The notes under the pieces are model-generated. The model made no database searches and was not told where the DNA came from. It saw nothing but the letters and a program-made list of their open reading frames with translations. The position numbers and the translations under genes were made by a program. From Candidatus Nitrosopumilus sp. (GTDB lineage Archaea > Thermoproteota > Nitrososphaeria > Nitrososphaerales > Nitrosopumilaceae), in NCBI GenBank assembly GCA_029861785.1, contig JAOTYR010000003.1, forward strand, positions 1 through 43,169: a DNA stretch of 43,169 nt, read 5' to 3'. The number at the start of each line of letters is the position of its first letter. Position 1 is the stretch's first letter. Positions 24,719-36,256 of this stretch are shown piece after piece.

Positions 24719-25756
24719 TTAATCTTCTTCAAGAATTAGTTTAGACATTGTAATTTCTGTAGGGATTTTTTGTTCTACTGCATAAGCAATAGCTGCCAAA
24801 TTTCTTACCTCATATGCTGTTAATTTGGTTATACCAATTATAGTTGCAAAACTGAACATCTTGGTGAAAGATCTCAATGATGATTGATAAATTTCTAATT
24901 CAAAAGCTCTTTCAAACTCTGATATTGAATCTAATTCGTTTTCAGCTTCGGGAATTAGATTCTTGTATCTAGTACTAGTTAACTCATTAAATGCATCTCT
25001 AACTGAGGCCGCACTAATCATTCGTCCTAACAATTCTCTTGATGCGCTTGGAGTAACCGAAACAATCAAGTCATTAATCTGATCTTCTTCTAGACCCCAG
25101 AATTTTCCGCGTATTACACTTAACAAATTATAAAAATCAATATCCATTCCAATTAATTTGGTAACTTCAGTTTCTCTGCTATTTTTTATTGCACGACCTA
25201 GCTGTTGGTACAAAATTTTATCAAAATAAATATCAAAAATTTGAATATTCTTTTTATCATTATAAAGAGCAGCGGCCTTTGTAATTTCCTCTCCAAATTT
25301 TCCAGAGCTTAGACTTGCTACTGTTTCTTCCAAATCTTTTGCTACAAGCGCTTTAATGACAATGTCTCTTTGTTTGATCAACTCTTCTGCATGTAGATTG
25401 ATATGCATTTCAATTTCTTCCTGGGTTTTTCCTAGTACTTTTCCTTTTAGTACTGACTTTAAATTAGAAATAATAAATTTCAGGTAATATGCATTAAAGA
25501 TACTTTTATCCCCTGCTGTTTTTGCAATAGAATAATGAACATCTGCTAAATGTCCACGTAATGCGTTTTCAATCTTTTGAGAAGTATAGGGTTTTTGAAC
25601 ATCCGAAACTGAATCTCCGTAAATTGTATTTTTTATTCTAGTCATCAACTCTTCCAAGTCTCGTGATTCAGATAATGTTTGAAAATCCGCTTTTTTTAAT
25701 AACTGACCTCTCTTACTATATGATTTTACTGAAGCATAGACATTCTTGGAGCCCAT
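24719..25756 (-). CDS. atpC: A/V-type ATP synthase subunit C
   Basis: YASVKSYSKRGQLL...; all-helical 345-aa protein with C-terminal VRNLAAIAYAVEQKIP typical of subunit C/d. Confidence 0.85.
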   Translation of the reverse strand: MGSKNVYASVKSYSKRGQLLKKADFQTLSESRDLEELMTRIKNTIYGDSVSDVQKPYTSQKIENALRGHLADVHYSIAKTAGDKSIFNAYYLKFIISNLKSVLKGKVLGKTQEEIEMHINLHAEELIKQRDIVIKALVAKDLEETVASLSSGKFGEEITKAAALYNDKKNIQIFDIYFDKILYQQLGRAIKNSRETEVTKLIGMDIDFYNLLSVIRGKFWGLEEDQINDLIVSVTPSASRELLGRMISAASVRDAFNELTSTRYKNLIPEAENELDSISEFERAFELEIYQSSLRSFTKMFSFATIIGITKLTAYEVRNLAAIAYAVEQKIPTEITMSKLILEED

Positions 25757-29179: not shown

Positions 29180-31288
29180 TTACTTTTTTTTCCAGATAAA
29201 ATTATTGTAAATTAATTCTTGTCTAAGTTGTGCAAATGGTTGCGCACCACCACCGTACCACTTTGTAAAAAACTCATACAAGTGAAGTCTGAGAGACTGA
29301 ATATACACAATTAATCCCTCAATCATCATTATTCCCAAGTTTCCGCCAATGATCATTGCCATCGCTCCACCAGATTCTGAACCACCTAGTGATGAGAAGG
29401 CATTATTGACAGTCAATAACAATGCCGCATGCACCAACAGCATAATCCCTAGTCGAGCATAACTAATCGTGTGAGCTAAAGCCTCTACAGTTTTTCCAAG
29501 AAATACCTCCATTACCACACTCGCAGGGTCTCCTCCATCTTCAGGATGTTTCTTTGAATGCATAATTCCCCCCACCATCATTAACACCATTGATGCAATA
29601 ACGATAACCACTGCAATTCTTGTAACAATCCAAACCTGTGCCCAATCACCAAGGAAAATTGTTACCCATGGGACTGCTTCAGTATGTACTCTTGAATACA
29701 TATTCATCACATCATATTGGGAACCAATAGCACACATCATGATTACAACAATACCTCCATAGAGTGCAAGATTTGGAATTGCCTCCATATACAAAACAAG
29801 TTTTTGACCTGTCTGGGCAAGTCTTTGCATTCTCAAAACCATTGCCCAAACTAGATGAACAATTCCAAGGAACAATGAAACTTTGAGTATATTGATTACT
29901 TGATCAAATGTAAGCTCTGCAACACTAAGTATTCCAACAATCCAACTTACAGAGTAAAGTGCTCCTCCCTCCTCTAATAATCCTTCAAATGGACCCATAT
30001 GATCTAGGTGATATCCAAACGCCTCTCCTGCACCAACACCTGCTATTGCTGCTGAGGCACCAGAGATTGCAATTAACATTCCCCATCTTGAAAGCTCACC
30101 CTGTCCTTTTACTTTGAATAATAATCCTAACCCCATTAATAAGAGACCATGACCCATATCTGCAAACATCAGACCATAAAATATTGGCCACATCAAGGCA
30201 ATCATTGGAGTAGGATCTGGTTCTCCGTTCTTTGGAATTCCCTGACTCTTGGTAATAACTTCAAATGTTCTAACAAATCTCTTATTTTCAAATAAAGTTG
30301 GCAGTTCATTGATTATTTTGGGATCAGTAACTTCTTCAACAATTGAGGTCCATTGTTTAGTAGTGTCTTGGAATTTTTTTTCCATTTTTCTAGGAATGAA
30401 TCCTTGTATTACTGCAAAGTTTTTGGTTCCACCAGGCTTTCTTAGACTCTCAAGAACGTCTTTTGCAACAAGAGCCTTTTCATGGATAGATAAAATATCC
30501 CGTCTCAAACTCTTTTTAAGTCCAGAAATTTGTTTTGCAATTGAAGCTTGTTTTTCAGTTAACTCTTTAATTTTTGATGTTGCATATTCATATGCCTCAC
30601 TAGGAACTTGGGGGATTCCTTGCGGAATTGTAAAAACATTAGAGTTAAAGCTTCTTAGAACTTTGAGAACTTTTTCAGAGTCCTCCGAGTCAGAAATTAT
30701 TAAAAGAGCTGACTTTTCTTTATTCTCCAAATCATATTTGTAAATTGTAATATCTTCAAGAGAACGACTAATCTCTTCAAAATCTGAAGAATTGATAACA
30801 AATAGATTAGTGTAAAAATATTTCATCAATCCAAATCCAGTCAAGTCAATTTTCATTTTCTTGATCACTTCCAAAGTTTCTTTAAGCGAAGAAAGCTCTT
30901 CTATTGCAAGTTTTGTATTTGATGCTTCTTCCAAGAGTTCGGAGGGTTTGTCAATAACTGAAGGTGCTTTTTCTTTAAGATAATTTACCATATCCTCAAT
31001 TTCGTCAATTTCGTAATCTTTCTTTTTGATTACAGTTCCTTTGAAAAGTATCTCCATGATTCCGACATTAAGGGGAAGTCCTAAACCTTTTACCACATCA
31101 TCAATTGACTGAAATGCTTTTTGGGCCTCTAATAGAAGATCATCAATTCCCGGAGTTACAAGATCATTATCTGTTTCTATTTTGTGAAACCATTCAAATT
31201 CTGTTAGTCTTGAAATCGCTCTTGGAGACTCACTTCTTGGTAAAATAACAGTTCCAAGTTTTAGATCGGCTGTAGCCAAGATAATCAA
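29180..31288 (-). CDS. atpI: A/V-type ATP synthase subunit I (a)
   Basis: Coiled N-terminal half and GLMFADMGHGLLLMGLGLLF / EALAHTISYARLGIMLLVHAALL motifs. Confidence 0.95.
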   Translation of the reverse strand: MIILATADLKLGTVILPRSESPRAISRLTEFEWFHKIETDNDLVTPGIDDLLLEAQKAFQSIDDVVKGLGLPLNVGIMEILFKGTVIKKKDYEIDEIEDMVNYLKEKAPSVIDKPSELLEEASNTKLAIEELSSLKETLEVIKKMKIDLTGFGLMKYFYTNLFVINSSDFEEISRSLEDITIYKYDLENKEKSALLIISDSEDSEKVLKVLRSFNSNVFTIPQGIPQVPSEAYEYATSKIKELTEKQASIAKQISGLKKSLRRDILSIHEKALVAKDVLESLRKPGGTKNFAVIQGFIPRKMEKKFQDTTKQWTSIVEEVTDPKIINELPTLFENKRFVRTFEVITKSQGIPKNGEPDPTPMIALMWPIFYGLMFADMGHGLLLMGLGLLFKVKGQGELSRWGMLIAISGASAAIAGVGAGEAFGYHLDHMGPFEGLLEEGGALYSVSWIVGILSVAELTFDQVINILKVSLFLGIVHLVWAMVLRMQRLAQTGQKLVLYMEAIPNLALYGGIVVIMMCAIGSQYDVMNMYSRVHTEAVPWVTIFLGDWAQVWIVTRIAVVIVIASMVLMMVGGIMHSKKHPEDGGDPASVVMEVFLGKTVEALAHTISYARLGIMLLVHAALLLTVNNAFSSLGGSESGGAMAMIIGGNLGIMMIEGLIVYIQSLRLHLYEFFTKWYGGGAQPFAQLRQELIYNNFIWKKK

Positions 31289-31371: not shown

Positions 31372-31971
31372 TTGGCATCAGATTCTGCATTAGAAGGTAC
31401 GATTGACAAAATTCTTGGCCAAACTGAATCTAATATTCTTTCAGGCCTTGATTCTGCACTCTCAGAATCTAAACAAAGTCTGGATGATTCCGTTATTACT
31501 TTAGAGCAAGAATATGATCAAATCATCTCAAATGGTAAAAAAGAAGCCGATAAAATTGAAAAACAGATTATTGGAAGCTCTGATATTGAGTCCAGAAACA
31601 AAAAGCTAACCACCGTAGAAGAATCAATTGATAAAGTCTTTACAAAAGCAATAGAAGAAATTTCAAATGCCGATCGCAGTGGCGATTATTCCAATTTAAT
31701 TAAATCTCTATTAGATGAATCAACAAAAATCTTAGGAACAACTGAAATCACAGTTTTTACCAATTCTAAAGATAAAGATGTAGTCCAATCAACACTCTCT
31801 CAATATCCAGGAGCTGAACTCTCATCAGAAACCATTGATTGTCTTGGAGGTGTGAAAGTAAAATCAAAGGATGGTGCAATGACTTTTGACAATACTATCG
31901 ATGCTAAAATTGAACGATTGAAGCCTTTAATTAGGAAAGATATCGCAACCCAATTTGGAGTAGGTAACTAA
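31372..31971 (+). CDS. atpE: A/V-type ATP synthase subunit E
   Basis: Long N-terminal helix and C-terminal globular [41 protein letters not shown]; directly upstream of atpA; TTG start. Confidence 0.92.
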
Positions 31972-31972
31972 A

Positions 31973-33751
31973 ATGGCTGCACAAGGTAGAATTGTTTGGG
32001 TAAGCGGTCCGGCTGTTAGAGCAGACGGAATGTCTGATGCAAAAATGTATGAGACTGTAACTGTTGGAAATTCAAAACTTGTAGGAGAAGTGATTAGACT
32101 AACAGGAGATGTTGCATTTATTCAAGTCTATGAATCAACCAGCGGATTAAAACCAGGTGAACCGGTAATTGGAACTGGAAACCCACTTAGTGTTTTATTG
32201 GGTCCAGGAATTATTGGACAAATTTATGACGGAATTCAAAGACCTCTAAAAGAATTATCAAAAGCCTCAGGTTCCTATATTGGAAGAGGTATAACTACAA
32301 CCCCCGTTGACATGACCAAACAATACCATTTTATTCCAACTGTCAACGTTGGAGACGAAGTTTCTGCTGGAAGCGTAATTGGTACTGTACAAGAAACAGA
32401 TCTAATTGAGCATTCCATCATGGTTCCCCCTGACCATAAAGGAGGAAAGATTACAAATATCGTAAGTGAAGGAGATTATAATTTAGAAACTGAAATGGCA
32501 ACCACTGAAAAAGATGGTCAGTCTGTTCCATTAAAGATGTTTCACAAATGGCCTGTAAGAAAACCACGTCCATTCCTAAAACGATATGACCCTACAGTTC
32601 CACTATTAACAGGACAACGTGTTATTGACACTTTCTTCCCCATTGCAAAAGGCGGTACTGGTTCAATACCAGGTGCTTTTGGAACTGGAAAAACAGTAAC
32701 ATTACACCAGATTGCTAAATGGGCGGATTCTCAAGTTGTAGTTTACATCGGATGTGGAGAAAGAGGCAATGAAATGACAGAAGTTCTAGTTGAGTTCCCA
32801 GAACTCAAGGATCCTAGAACTGGAAAACCACTTATGGATCGAACAGTTTTGGTTGCAAATACTAGTAACATGCCAGTAGCAGCCAGAGAAGCAAGTATCT
32901 ATACTGGTGTAACAATCGCTGAATATTATAGAGATATGGGTAAAGACGTTGTACTTGTAGCAGATTCTACAAGTAGATGGGCCGAATCTCTAAGAGAAAT
33001 GAGTGGCCGTTTAGAAGAAATGCCTGCAGAAGAGGGATATCCATCATATCTTGCATCAAGATTAGCAGAATTTTATGAAAGAGCTGGACGAGTAAGAGCC
33101 TCTGGCAGTCCAGACCGAGACGGATCAGTTACTCTAGTTGGAGCAGTCTCACCATCAGGTGGGGACTTTACTGAACCCGTAACAACCCATACTATGAGAT
33201 TTATCAAAACTTTTTGGGCTTTGGATGCAAAGCTTGCATATTCTAGACACTATCCGTCAATTAATTGGATGAACAGTTATTCAGGTTACTTGGCAGACAT
33301 TGCAAAATGGTGGGGAGAAAACATCAATGAAGATTGGCTTAGCCTTAGAAGTGAGGCATATGGTGTTTTACAAAGAGAAGATACACTAAAAGAAATTGTG
33401 AGACTCTTAGGCCCAGAAGCCTTGCCTGATGAAGAAAAATTAATTTTAGAAGTTGCAAGAATGGTAAAGATTGGTTTGTTACAACAAAACTCATTTGACG
33501 AAGTTGATACTTATTGTAGTCCAGAAAAACAATACAAATTACTAAAACTTCTTGTAGACTTTTACAAGCGAGGACAACAAGCTTTGAAAGAAGGGACTGA
33601 ATTAGCTGATATTAGAGCTATGCCAATTGTTGGTTCAATGCTAAAGGCACGAATGGATGTCAAAGACGATGAGATGCCAAAACTTGATCAATTAGAAGTT
33701 GACATGCAAGAACAATTTAAGAGCATAGCAGGAGTGAAAGTTCAAAATTGA
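31973..33751 (+). CDS. atpA: A/V-type ATP synthase subunit A (catalytic)
   Basis: P-loop [64 protein letters not shown]. Confidence 0.98.
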
Positions 33752-35133
33752 GTGCCGAAGGTGGAGTCCAATACAGCAAGATTGCAGAAATTAAAGGTCC
33801 GCTAGTGGTAGTTGATGACGTTTCAAATGCAGCATTTGATGAACTAGTAGAGATTGAAACTAATGAAGGAGAAAGACGACTAGGTAAAGTTTTAGAAGTT
33901 GGAAATGGAAAAGCCATTGTACAAGTATTTGAAGGAACAACTGGATTATCAATTTCTGGTACTAATGCAAAATTTGTTGGTAAAGTTATGGAAATGCCAG
34001 TATCAAGAGAAGTGTTAGGAAGAGTCTTTGATGGTTTAGGAAGGCCAAAAGATGGACTACCAGATCCAATTGCTGATCAGTTTATTGATATCAACGGTGA
34101 ACCAATGAACCCTGAGCAGAGAGAATATCCTAAAGACTTTATCCAAACCGGTGTATCAGTTATTGATGGAATGATTACTCTGGTAAGAGGACAAAAGCTT
34201 CCAATATTTTCAGGATCAGGAATGTCTCATAATCTTGTTGCAGCACAAATTGCCAGACAAGCAAGCGTAATTGGAAAACAAGATGATTTTGCAGTAGTAT
34301 TTGCAGCAATCGGTGTGCAATACAGTGAAGCAGAATATTTTAGACGAAGTCTTGAAGAATCTGGTGCACTAAAGAGAAGTGTTCTTTTCCTAAACACAGC
34401 AGATGACCCTGCAATTGAAAGAATAATTACTCCACGCGTCGCATTAACTGTAGCAGAATATTTGGCATTTGAGCTTGGAATGCATGTATTGGTCATACTA
34501 ACTGATATGACAAATTATGCTGAGGCATTAAGAGAAATTAGTGCAGCAAGAGAAGAAGTTCCAGGAAGAAAAGGCTATCCGGGCTATCTTTACACAGATC
34601 TTTCAACAATTTATGAAAGGGCAGGCAAACTAAATGGAAAAAAAGGAAGTGTCACCCAAGTTCCGATTCTTTCAATGCCATCAGATGATATTACTCACCC
34701 AATTCCAGATCTTACAGGATATATCACAGAAGGTCAGGTTGTTCTTGGTAGAGATTTGTTTAGGCAAGGAGTTTATCCTCCTGTGAACATCTTGATGAGC
34801 CTTAGTAGATTGATGAAAGACGGAATTGGTGAAGGAAGCACAAGAGCAGATCATGGCGAAGTTTCCAATCAAGTTTATGATGCATATTCTAGAGCACAAG
34901 AAGTAAGAGCTCTTGCTGGAATTGTAGGGAAGGCAGGATTAACAGAAATCGATTTGAAATACATGGATGTTGGAGATGCCTTTGAAAAAGAATTCCTATC
35001 TCAAGCCACTGATGAAAATAGAACAATTGAAGAAACTCTAGGTATCTTGTGGAAGATAGTTTCTAAACTACCAAAGAATGAAATTACCAAAATTAAAGAC
35101 AAATACATAGACCAATATTACAAGGAACAGTAG
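33748..35133 (+). CDS. atpB: A/V-type ATP synthase subunit B
   Basis: [67 protein letters not shown] overlap with atpA. Confidence 0.98.
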
Positions 35134-35137
35134 CGAA

Positions 35138-35767
35138 ATGTCATTTGGACAAAATGTAGCTGCAACAAAAATTGAACTTCTAAAATATAAAAAATCAAGC
35201 CAGGTTGCTATAATGGTTCAGAAAATTTTAGATGACAAGCGTAAAGTTTTATTAAAAAACATCGAAGAGATGATTCAAGAAGCATCTAAGGCAAGAGGTG
35301 GTATTTGGGATCCTTTGCAGGATATATACAAGTCTGTCAACGAGGCATATCTTGCATTAGGAACAGGAACAGTAGATTCTGTTGCAGAATCAACACCACC
35401 AGTAATGGAAGTCGATATCCATGTTAGAAGAGTTGTAGATGTAAAAATTCCCGCACTTACTGTCACTGAAAAAGATACAAAATCAATGCCTTATGGATTT
35501 GCTGATACAAACTCCTCAATAGACAGGGCAGCAAAACAGATCAAAATTTTACTTCCAAAAATCTGCAAAGCAGCAGAATATGAGAATTCAATATTTAGCC
35601 TTGCAAAGGCACTTGAGAAAACCCAAAAATTGCTTAACGCACTAGAAAATGTAATTATTCCTCAGTATAAAGAAAAAATAAGATTTATTCTTGCAACCTT
35701 GGAAGAGAGAGAAAGAGAAGATTTCGCAAAGTTAAAAAAAGTCAAAGCTAAGATGGAAAGTAGATAA
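35138..35767 (+). CDS. atpD: A/V-type ATP synthase subunit D
   Basis: TKIELLKYKKSSQVAIMVQKILDDKRKVLL; C-terminal NALENVIIPQYKEKIRFILATLEEREREDFAKLKKVK. Confidence 0.95.
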   Translation: MSFGQNVAATKIELLKYKKSSQVAIMVQKILDDKRKVLLKNIEEMIQEASKARGGIWDPLQDIYKSVNEAYLALGTGTVDSVAESTPPVMEVDIHVRRVVDVKIPALTVTEKDTKSMPYGFADTNSSIDRAAKQIKILLPKICKAAEYENSIFSLAKALEKTQKLLNALENVIIPQYKEKIRFILATLEEREREDFAKLKKVKAKMESR

Positions 35768-35898
35768 TGGCAAAAGAAGAAATTAAAAAATTAATTGAAC
35801 AATCAAAAAAATCAATAGAACAAGATCACGAAAAATTTTCTCAATCTATTAAAGATGATCTTCAATCCTTCAAAAAAAAGACTTTGGATAAAATTTGA
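35767..35898 (+). CDS. 43-aa coiled-coil sORF in the ATPase operon
   Basis: MAKEEIKKLIEQSKKSIEQDHEKFSQSIKDDLQSFKKKTLDKI; TAATG overlap with atpD stop; amphipathic helix with about 11-residue periodicity. Confidence 0.65.
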   Translation: MAKEEIKKLIEQSKKSIEQDHEKFSQSIKDDLQSFKKKTLDKI

Positions 35899-35950
35899 TC
35901 CAAAAACATTATCATGATTTAAATATGGAACGGAAGGGGCTAAATCGTAC

Positions 35951-36256
35951 ATGAAACCTATTGTATTAGCACTTTTGGCGACAATTGTAATTTCAGCATT
36001 AGGATTCACTGGTACTGCATATGCTCAAGAATCTGGAGCATCAGAAGCAGCTGGCATGAAACTTTTAGGTGCAGGTTTAGCATTTGGTTTGGCAGCAGCT
36101 GGCGCTGGTATCGGTTTAGGTCAAGTAGGTGCAGCAGGTCTTGCAGTAATTAGCGAGAACCCAGCTTTACAGTCAAAAGTATTCATCTTCGTAGGCATGG
36201 TAGAATCAATCGCTATCTACGGTATAGTTATGATGTTTATCATCTTGGGACAGTAA
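35951..36256 (+). CDS. atpK: A/V-type ATP synthase proteolipid subunit K (c)
   Basis: Signal-peptide-like N-terminus; LGAGLAFGLAAAGAGIGLGQVGAAGLAVISENP and FVGMVESIAIYGIVMMFII. Confidence 0.95.
   Translation: MKPIVLALLATIVISALGFTGTAYAQESGASEAAGMKLLGAGLAFGLAAAGAGIGLGQVGAAGLAVISENPALQSKVFIFVGMVESIAIYGIVMMFIILGQ

Follow-up and report, generated by a model that had tools for sequence, protein, structure and literature searches.

A conserved small gene between subunits D and K of the A-type ATP synthase in Nitrosopumilaceae, a candidate additional subunit

Background

Ammonia-oxidising archaea rank among the Earth's most abundant cells. Several kinds of small helical ATPase-associated proteins offer themselves for comparison with the gene described here. 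The Sulfolobus operon of Denda et al., published in 1990 and cited in PMC2946596, reportedly holds an epsilon gene (PF08112, ATP-synt_E_2) between the gamma (D) and the proteolipid gene, i.e. after D and before K. The A-type subunit H and V-ATPase subunit G families (TIGR02926, PRK08404, PF03179, PF16999) are all-helical, charged, hendecad-like and ATPase-linked, with a stalk-spanning helix of about 100 aa. IF1 and the cyanobacterial AtpTheta are short amphipathic proteins that act on the rotary ATPase as inhibitors of ATP hydrolysis; to our knowledge, both are encoded outside the atp operon in known cases. AtpTheta of cyanobacteria is covered in PMC9241938.

According to Wang et al. 2019 (PMC6863869), neutrophilic ammonia-oxidising archaea have no reported clear homolog of subunit H/G, and the list of ATP synthase subunits of ammonia-oxidising archaea was described as incomplete in lacking H/G (PMC6863869). 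The V-type-like operons have been proposed to pump protons by hydrolysis (PMC6863869), and earlier work cited in the same paper would leave Sulfolobales without subunit C. Two gaps receive testable answers here, in the form of a candidate subunit H beside a NAC gene and of a small unannotated gene under selection, which should join the subunit list of the ammonia-oxidising archaeal ATP synthase.

Results

The analysed stretch ("the window") comprises 43,169 nucleotides of Candidatus Nitrosopumilus sp. (assembly GCA_029861785.1, contig JAOTYR010000003.1). Its ATPase genes and associated features are listed in Table 1, together with one feature from another contig of the same genome. The small open reading frame (sORF) is separated from the start of atpK by 52 nt. 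The original prediction of a 43-codon frame between atpD and atpK was confirmed by the sequence and the ORF list, and its reading of the overlap between the sORF start and the atpD stop (TAATG) proved correct in the sequence.

Table 1. Features of the ATP synthase locus in the window, and the candidate subunit H gene elsewhere in the same genome
Feature	Position	Strand	Evidence or remark
atpC (AC39-like), without adjoining H in the window	24719-25756	-	PF01992 E=4.8e-59
atpI/a, membrane stator subunit, divergent to the operon	29180-31288	-	PF01496 E=2.2e-23
atpE, peripheral-stalk subunit E	31372-31971	+	PF01991 E=1.5e-17
atpA, catalytic subunit A	31973-33751	+	ORF list, named from sequence by established knowledge
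atpB, subunit B	33748-35133	+	ORF list, named from sequence by established knowledge
atpD, central-stalk subunit D	35138-35767	+	PF01813 E=1.8e-50
TAATG, overlap of atpD stop and sORF start	35765-35769	+	read from sequence
sORF, 43 aa, MAKEEIKKLIEQSKKSIEQDHEKFSQSIKDDLQSFKKKTLDKI	35767-35898	+	unannotated; between atpD and atpK; conservation, dN/dS, AlphaFold helix
Conserved TCATGATTTAAATATGGAA upstream of atpK, probable atpK promoter	35912-35930	+	conservation of TTTAAAT core
atpK, proteolipid (c-ring subunit), signal-like N-terminus	35951-36256	+	PF00137 E=1.3e-17
H candidate, 111 aa, ending FDEAVRHVVSTVLKA	G000:C29:1041-1376 (L089)	-	window's own genome; beside PUA-protein and NAC genes

Matches to the sORF at E<=1e-3 were obtained in 30 of the 61 relatives searched. 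Within the window's family, each A-type locus inspected has it at the same place between D and K, mostly with 43 codons and without gaps; one genus carries five additional codons at the C-terminal end, and in a few members the frame is a little shorter. In 29 of 30 loci the start falls between -8 and +2 nt from the stop of D, the remaining locus (L030) having a start at -19 and an upstream ORF that was picked there but is not recognisably D. A separate tally by hand covers 27 loci and omits L025 and L027 (both -8) as well as L030. Translation of the sORF is likely coupled to that of D via the TAATG overlap.

The dN/dS comparison that had been proposed as a check gave a median of 0.22 over 130 unsaturated pairs. 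Variability at the first, second and third codon positions is 0.24, 0.11 and 0.36, i.e. lowest at the second and highest at the third. In simulations of random substitution at the observed divergence, which ignore shared ancestry, an average of about 4% of runs leave the frame open. The sORF is a real gene under purifying selection, tied to A-type operons.

The TTTAAAT core upstream of atpK is present in 27 of 27 relatives, with strongly conserved flanks. As judged from archaeal TATA boxes, TCATGATTTAAATATGGAA is a probable promoter of atpK, presumably a strong one that would give K its own transcript. Since K possesses its own conserved upstream element, the sORF is probably the final gene of an E-A-B-D-sORF transcript.

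The AlphaFold model of the sORF product is a single helix covering residues 2-42 with a mean pLDDT of 96, which together with a permutation test bears out the single charged amphipathic helix of the original prediction; the hydrophobic positions it named (I6/I17/I28; I10/L32/I43; F24/F35) are likewise correct. The permutation test (1 of 2000 shuffles) addresses amphipathicity at any angle and not hendecad versus heptad. The family-averaged hydrophobicity signal has its maximum at 96 degrees per residue, corresponding to a period of 3.75 residues. Its power amounts to 90 for the quindecad angle and 69 for the hendecad angle, against 4 for the heptad angle; the GCN4 heptad control peaks at 103 degrees. 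The predicted hendecad character thus takes the form of a hendecad/quindecad periodicity resembling that of the H helix (97.5 degrees) and of the E N-helix (96 degrees). The N-helix of D peaks at 96.5 degrees as well, so the periodicity does not single out E/H; it favours, rather than proves, an E/H partner.

Outside the window's family, a charged helical ORF of 36-60 aa, picked by position and by eye, follows D in 21 further Thermoproteota families among the sampled genomes. It usually starts a few bases from the D stop and is usually followed by K, and its periodicity has a maximum between 95.5 and 98 degrees in 21 of the 22 families compared, many of which contributed one or two sequences. 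Families without such an ORF outnumber those with one among the sampled genomes inspected, so the gene is dispensable to A-type ATPases in general. In locus L214 (G211, family f43) the 116 nt that separate D from the next gene, K, contain no small ORF, suggesting natural loss or absence of the post-D ORF in some lineages. Where K has moved away (G045 and G123) the sORF remains beside D; in family f31 (G154) the ORF lies nearer K. A link of the sORF to K rather than D was considered and rejected, as lineages that lack the post-D ORF showed no small coiled-coil ORF ahead of K. In G052 (L093 1105-1622, minus strand) a 109-aa and a 63-aa ORF are located between the sORF and atpK, the former resembling MazF/PemK toxins by eye.

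An iterated HMM search starting from the window's family, into whose profile only post-D ORFs were admitted, reached the post-D ORFs of families f3 (1.8e-5), f14, f12, f2 and f17, and later those of f30, f4, f15 and f10, ahead of true decoys. The best-scoring "decoys" were f30 post-D ORFs absent from the entered set; the first true decoys were pieces of H, with E 0.18 in the first round.

Post-D ORFs of Sulfolobaceae match the PF08112 profile "ATP synthase epsilon subunit" with 29.8 and 57.6 bits against a cutoff of 25. Such matches were found for 4 of the 26 post-D members, which equals the number of Sulfolobaceae rows, and the D protein of G206 is 89% identical to D of Sulfolobus sp. UBA167. 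Unlike these ORFs, the window sORF has no match to PF08112 at E<=10, and its membership by sequence was discarded. HMM comparisons with the Sulfolobus members gave E values of about 0.06-0.5. Among 27 profile comparisons run, hhalign gave 60% for the sORF profile against the Sulfolobus group, with reversed controls at 4% for the same pair and 68% for another pair; the latter value indicates a large coiled-coil bias, so the link between sORF and epsilon is positional and not proven by sequence. Neither the sORF nor Sulfolobus epsilon gave an informative hit when searched against PDB sequences. The sORF is shorter than epsilon (43 versus about 53 aa), by about 10 aa at the N-terminus. Both share the single charged helix, a similar periodicity and an alignable C-terminal register, and the H-C gene pair of Sulfolobaceae, apart from the operon, extends the likeness to the sORF system. 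By its place in the operon the window sORF is the positional counterpart of the Sulfolobus epsilon gene; from this position we infer a common ancestry.

Most A-type genomes contain an unlinked ORF of about 110 aa that the AhaH profile matches weakly at a permissive threshold (E<=1). The original prediction that no H/G-like ORF is visible therefore applies to the window, but fails for the whole genome, in which a 111-aa candidate is encoded on contig C29. Its AlphaFold model is a single helix of 109 residues (2-110). In NCBIfam it matches V-type ATP synthase subunit H (PRK08404) at 8.7e-8 in the window's own genome and at 1.8e-12 in G052, and the AhaH profile at 1e-5 and 2.1e-7, respectively, all of these matches being below the curated cutoffs. 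A Foldseek search with the H model, uninformative for a single helix, gave no matches; a PDB sequence search with the H profile gave weak matches to subunit E, b chain and other coiled-coil proteins, and no H/G chain.

The candidate is unlinked to atp genes in the window's own family. In G052, the PUA-NAC-H run continues directly into atpC and other ATPase genes, and in G051 H, C, I, F, E, A, B, D, sORF and K form one stretch. Family f27 and one f31 genome have the H-C gene pair as well. Four Sulfolobaceae genomes have weak H matches (1e-6 to 1e-3) about 25-50 bp upstream of atpC. Sulfolobaceae genomes do encode a PF01992 protein, i.e. subunit C (G161:C1:630419-631336, G140:C1:72056-72967, G176, G206 and G133), directly after H in 4 of 5 genomes, although PMC6863869, referring to earlier work, describes Sulfolobales as lacking C. 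A profile built from 13 of the H candidate proteins found H in 38 of the 46 sORF-bearing genomes tested, 13 of the 38 matching by construction. This profile did not find H in the other eight (G050, G054, G095, G133, G154, G162, G181 and G216); completeness is 82% for G050 and 84% for G054. The window's own genome is 77% complete. Mainly on grounds of synteny, the NAC-linked 111-aa protein is a strong candidate for the subunit H that is reportedly missing from neutrophilic ammonia-oxidising archaea.

Discussion

Of the possible explanations, that of a chance ORF in an intergenic region draws on the shortness of the sORF and on its lack of annotation in Pfam and NCBIfam. We give it practically no credence and consider it ruled out by the conserved frame, start, stop and length, by the low dN/dS and by the rarity with which such a frame survives drift. 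The original prediction went further and took the sORF for a shortened H/G subunit, pairing with E in place of a full-length one. A small charged helix with hendecad/quindecad periodicity, the absence of an H gene within the window, the literature without a reported H homolog in neutrophilic ammonia-oxidising archaea (PMC6863869) and the eight sORF-bearing genomes in which H was not found would all agree with this. Yet the prediction itself named a full-length H/G subunit encoded elsewhere, together with no predicted E interaction, as speaking against it, and the C29 candidate supplies the first half of this counter-evidence. An H candidate accompanies the sORF in most genomes that bear it, is a direct neighbour of C in G051, in G052 and in Sulfolobaceae, and in G051 shares one cluster with the sORF. 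Since the NAC/C-linked candidate coexists with it, the sORF is not a replacement of H, nor would it be the only H/G-type subunit of the enzyme. At profile level, no H/G family was listed for the sORF at E<=10 in the HMM search of profile libraries, with no match to AhaH or V-ATPase G, and hhalign between sORF and H reached 37% at best, less than a reversed control. The two helices also differ in length (43 aa with helix 2-42, compared with 111 aa and helix 2-110). Replacement of H/G, dropped on finding the full-length candidate in the same genomes, is thus highly improbable. Mutual exclusion of sORF and H was an idea that came from the V-type-like operons, which carry their own H and no sORF; it was abandoned because A-type genomes have an unlinked H.

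We regard each of the two remaining alternatives as rather unlikely, and one about as much as the other. An inhibitor of ATP hydrolysis resembling IF1 or AtpTheta, with its helix at the catalytic head, would suit the size and the amphipathic helix of the sORF as well as its absence from V-type-like operons. That absence is explained equally well by the separate ancestry of these operons, however, and the sORF, unlike IF1 and AtpTheta, is operon-encoded and has no similarity to known inhibitors in the profile libraries searched. Its place beside D, overlapping it, and the conservation of its product as one helix point towards a constitutive subunit and away from a conditional inhibitor. A subunit associated with the rotor, or an assembly factor for D, that binds to D, F or C in the central stalk would fit a start that overlaps or abuts the D stop, the retention of the sORF beside D where K has moved (G045, G123) and the similar periodicity of the D N-helix; but gene adjacency by itself shows no contact, and in G154 of family f31 the ORF is nearer K.

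On balance we think it probable that the sORF encodes an additional small A-ATPase subunit, a positional counterpart of epsilon and not a substitute for H/G. As judged from sequence, its product is presumably present in the ATPase complex. It would be translated in step with D and form a single helix, about 65 Angstrom long and with a periodicity of 11/15 residues. This short additional helix would join the E/H peripheral stalk in a right-handed coiled coil, where it may help to stiffen or lock the stator of a mainly ATP-synthesising enzyme. Taken separately, the predicted docking on the E/H stalk, which corresponds to the E-binding stalk peptide that the original prediction gave as its second option, is the favoured but tentative assignment, to which we would give somewhat less than an even chance. 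More doubtful still is the generalisation to a conserved tenth small subunit that would form a third right-handed helix on one or both E/H stalks in many Thermoproteota lineages; if true, this stator architecture would have no described equivalent in bacterial or euryarchaeal A/V-ATPases. The comparison also ties an old, little-studied Sulfolobus epsilon gene to a pattern present in many families of the phylum.

Genomes with D only in a V-type-like operon possess neither sORF nor NAC-linked H; G014, G017, G028, G032 and G043 gave a weak match to the H of their own operon, or nothing. In V-type-like operons (L077-L084, L058, L060 and L071) a conserved ORF of 41-69 aa is located between D and H. 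It has one apparent membrane span and a QQKKFYxIxRAFKxGNIL-like motif, and is possibly another unannotated small ATPase subunit.
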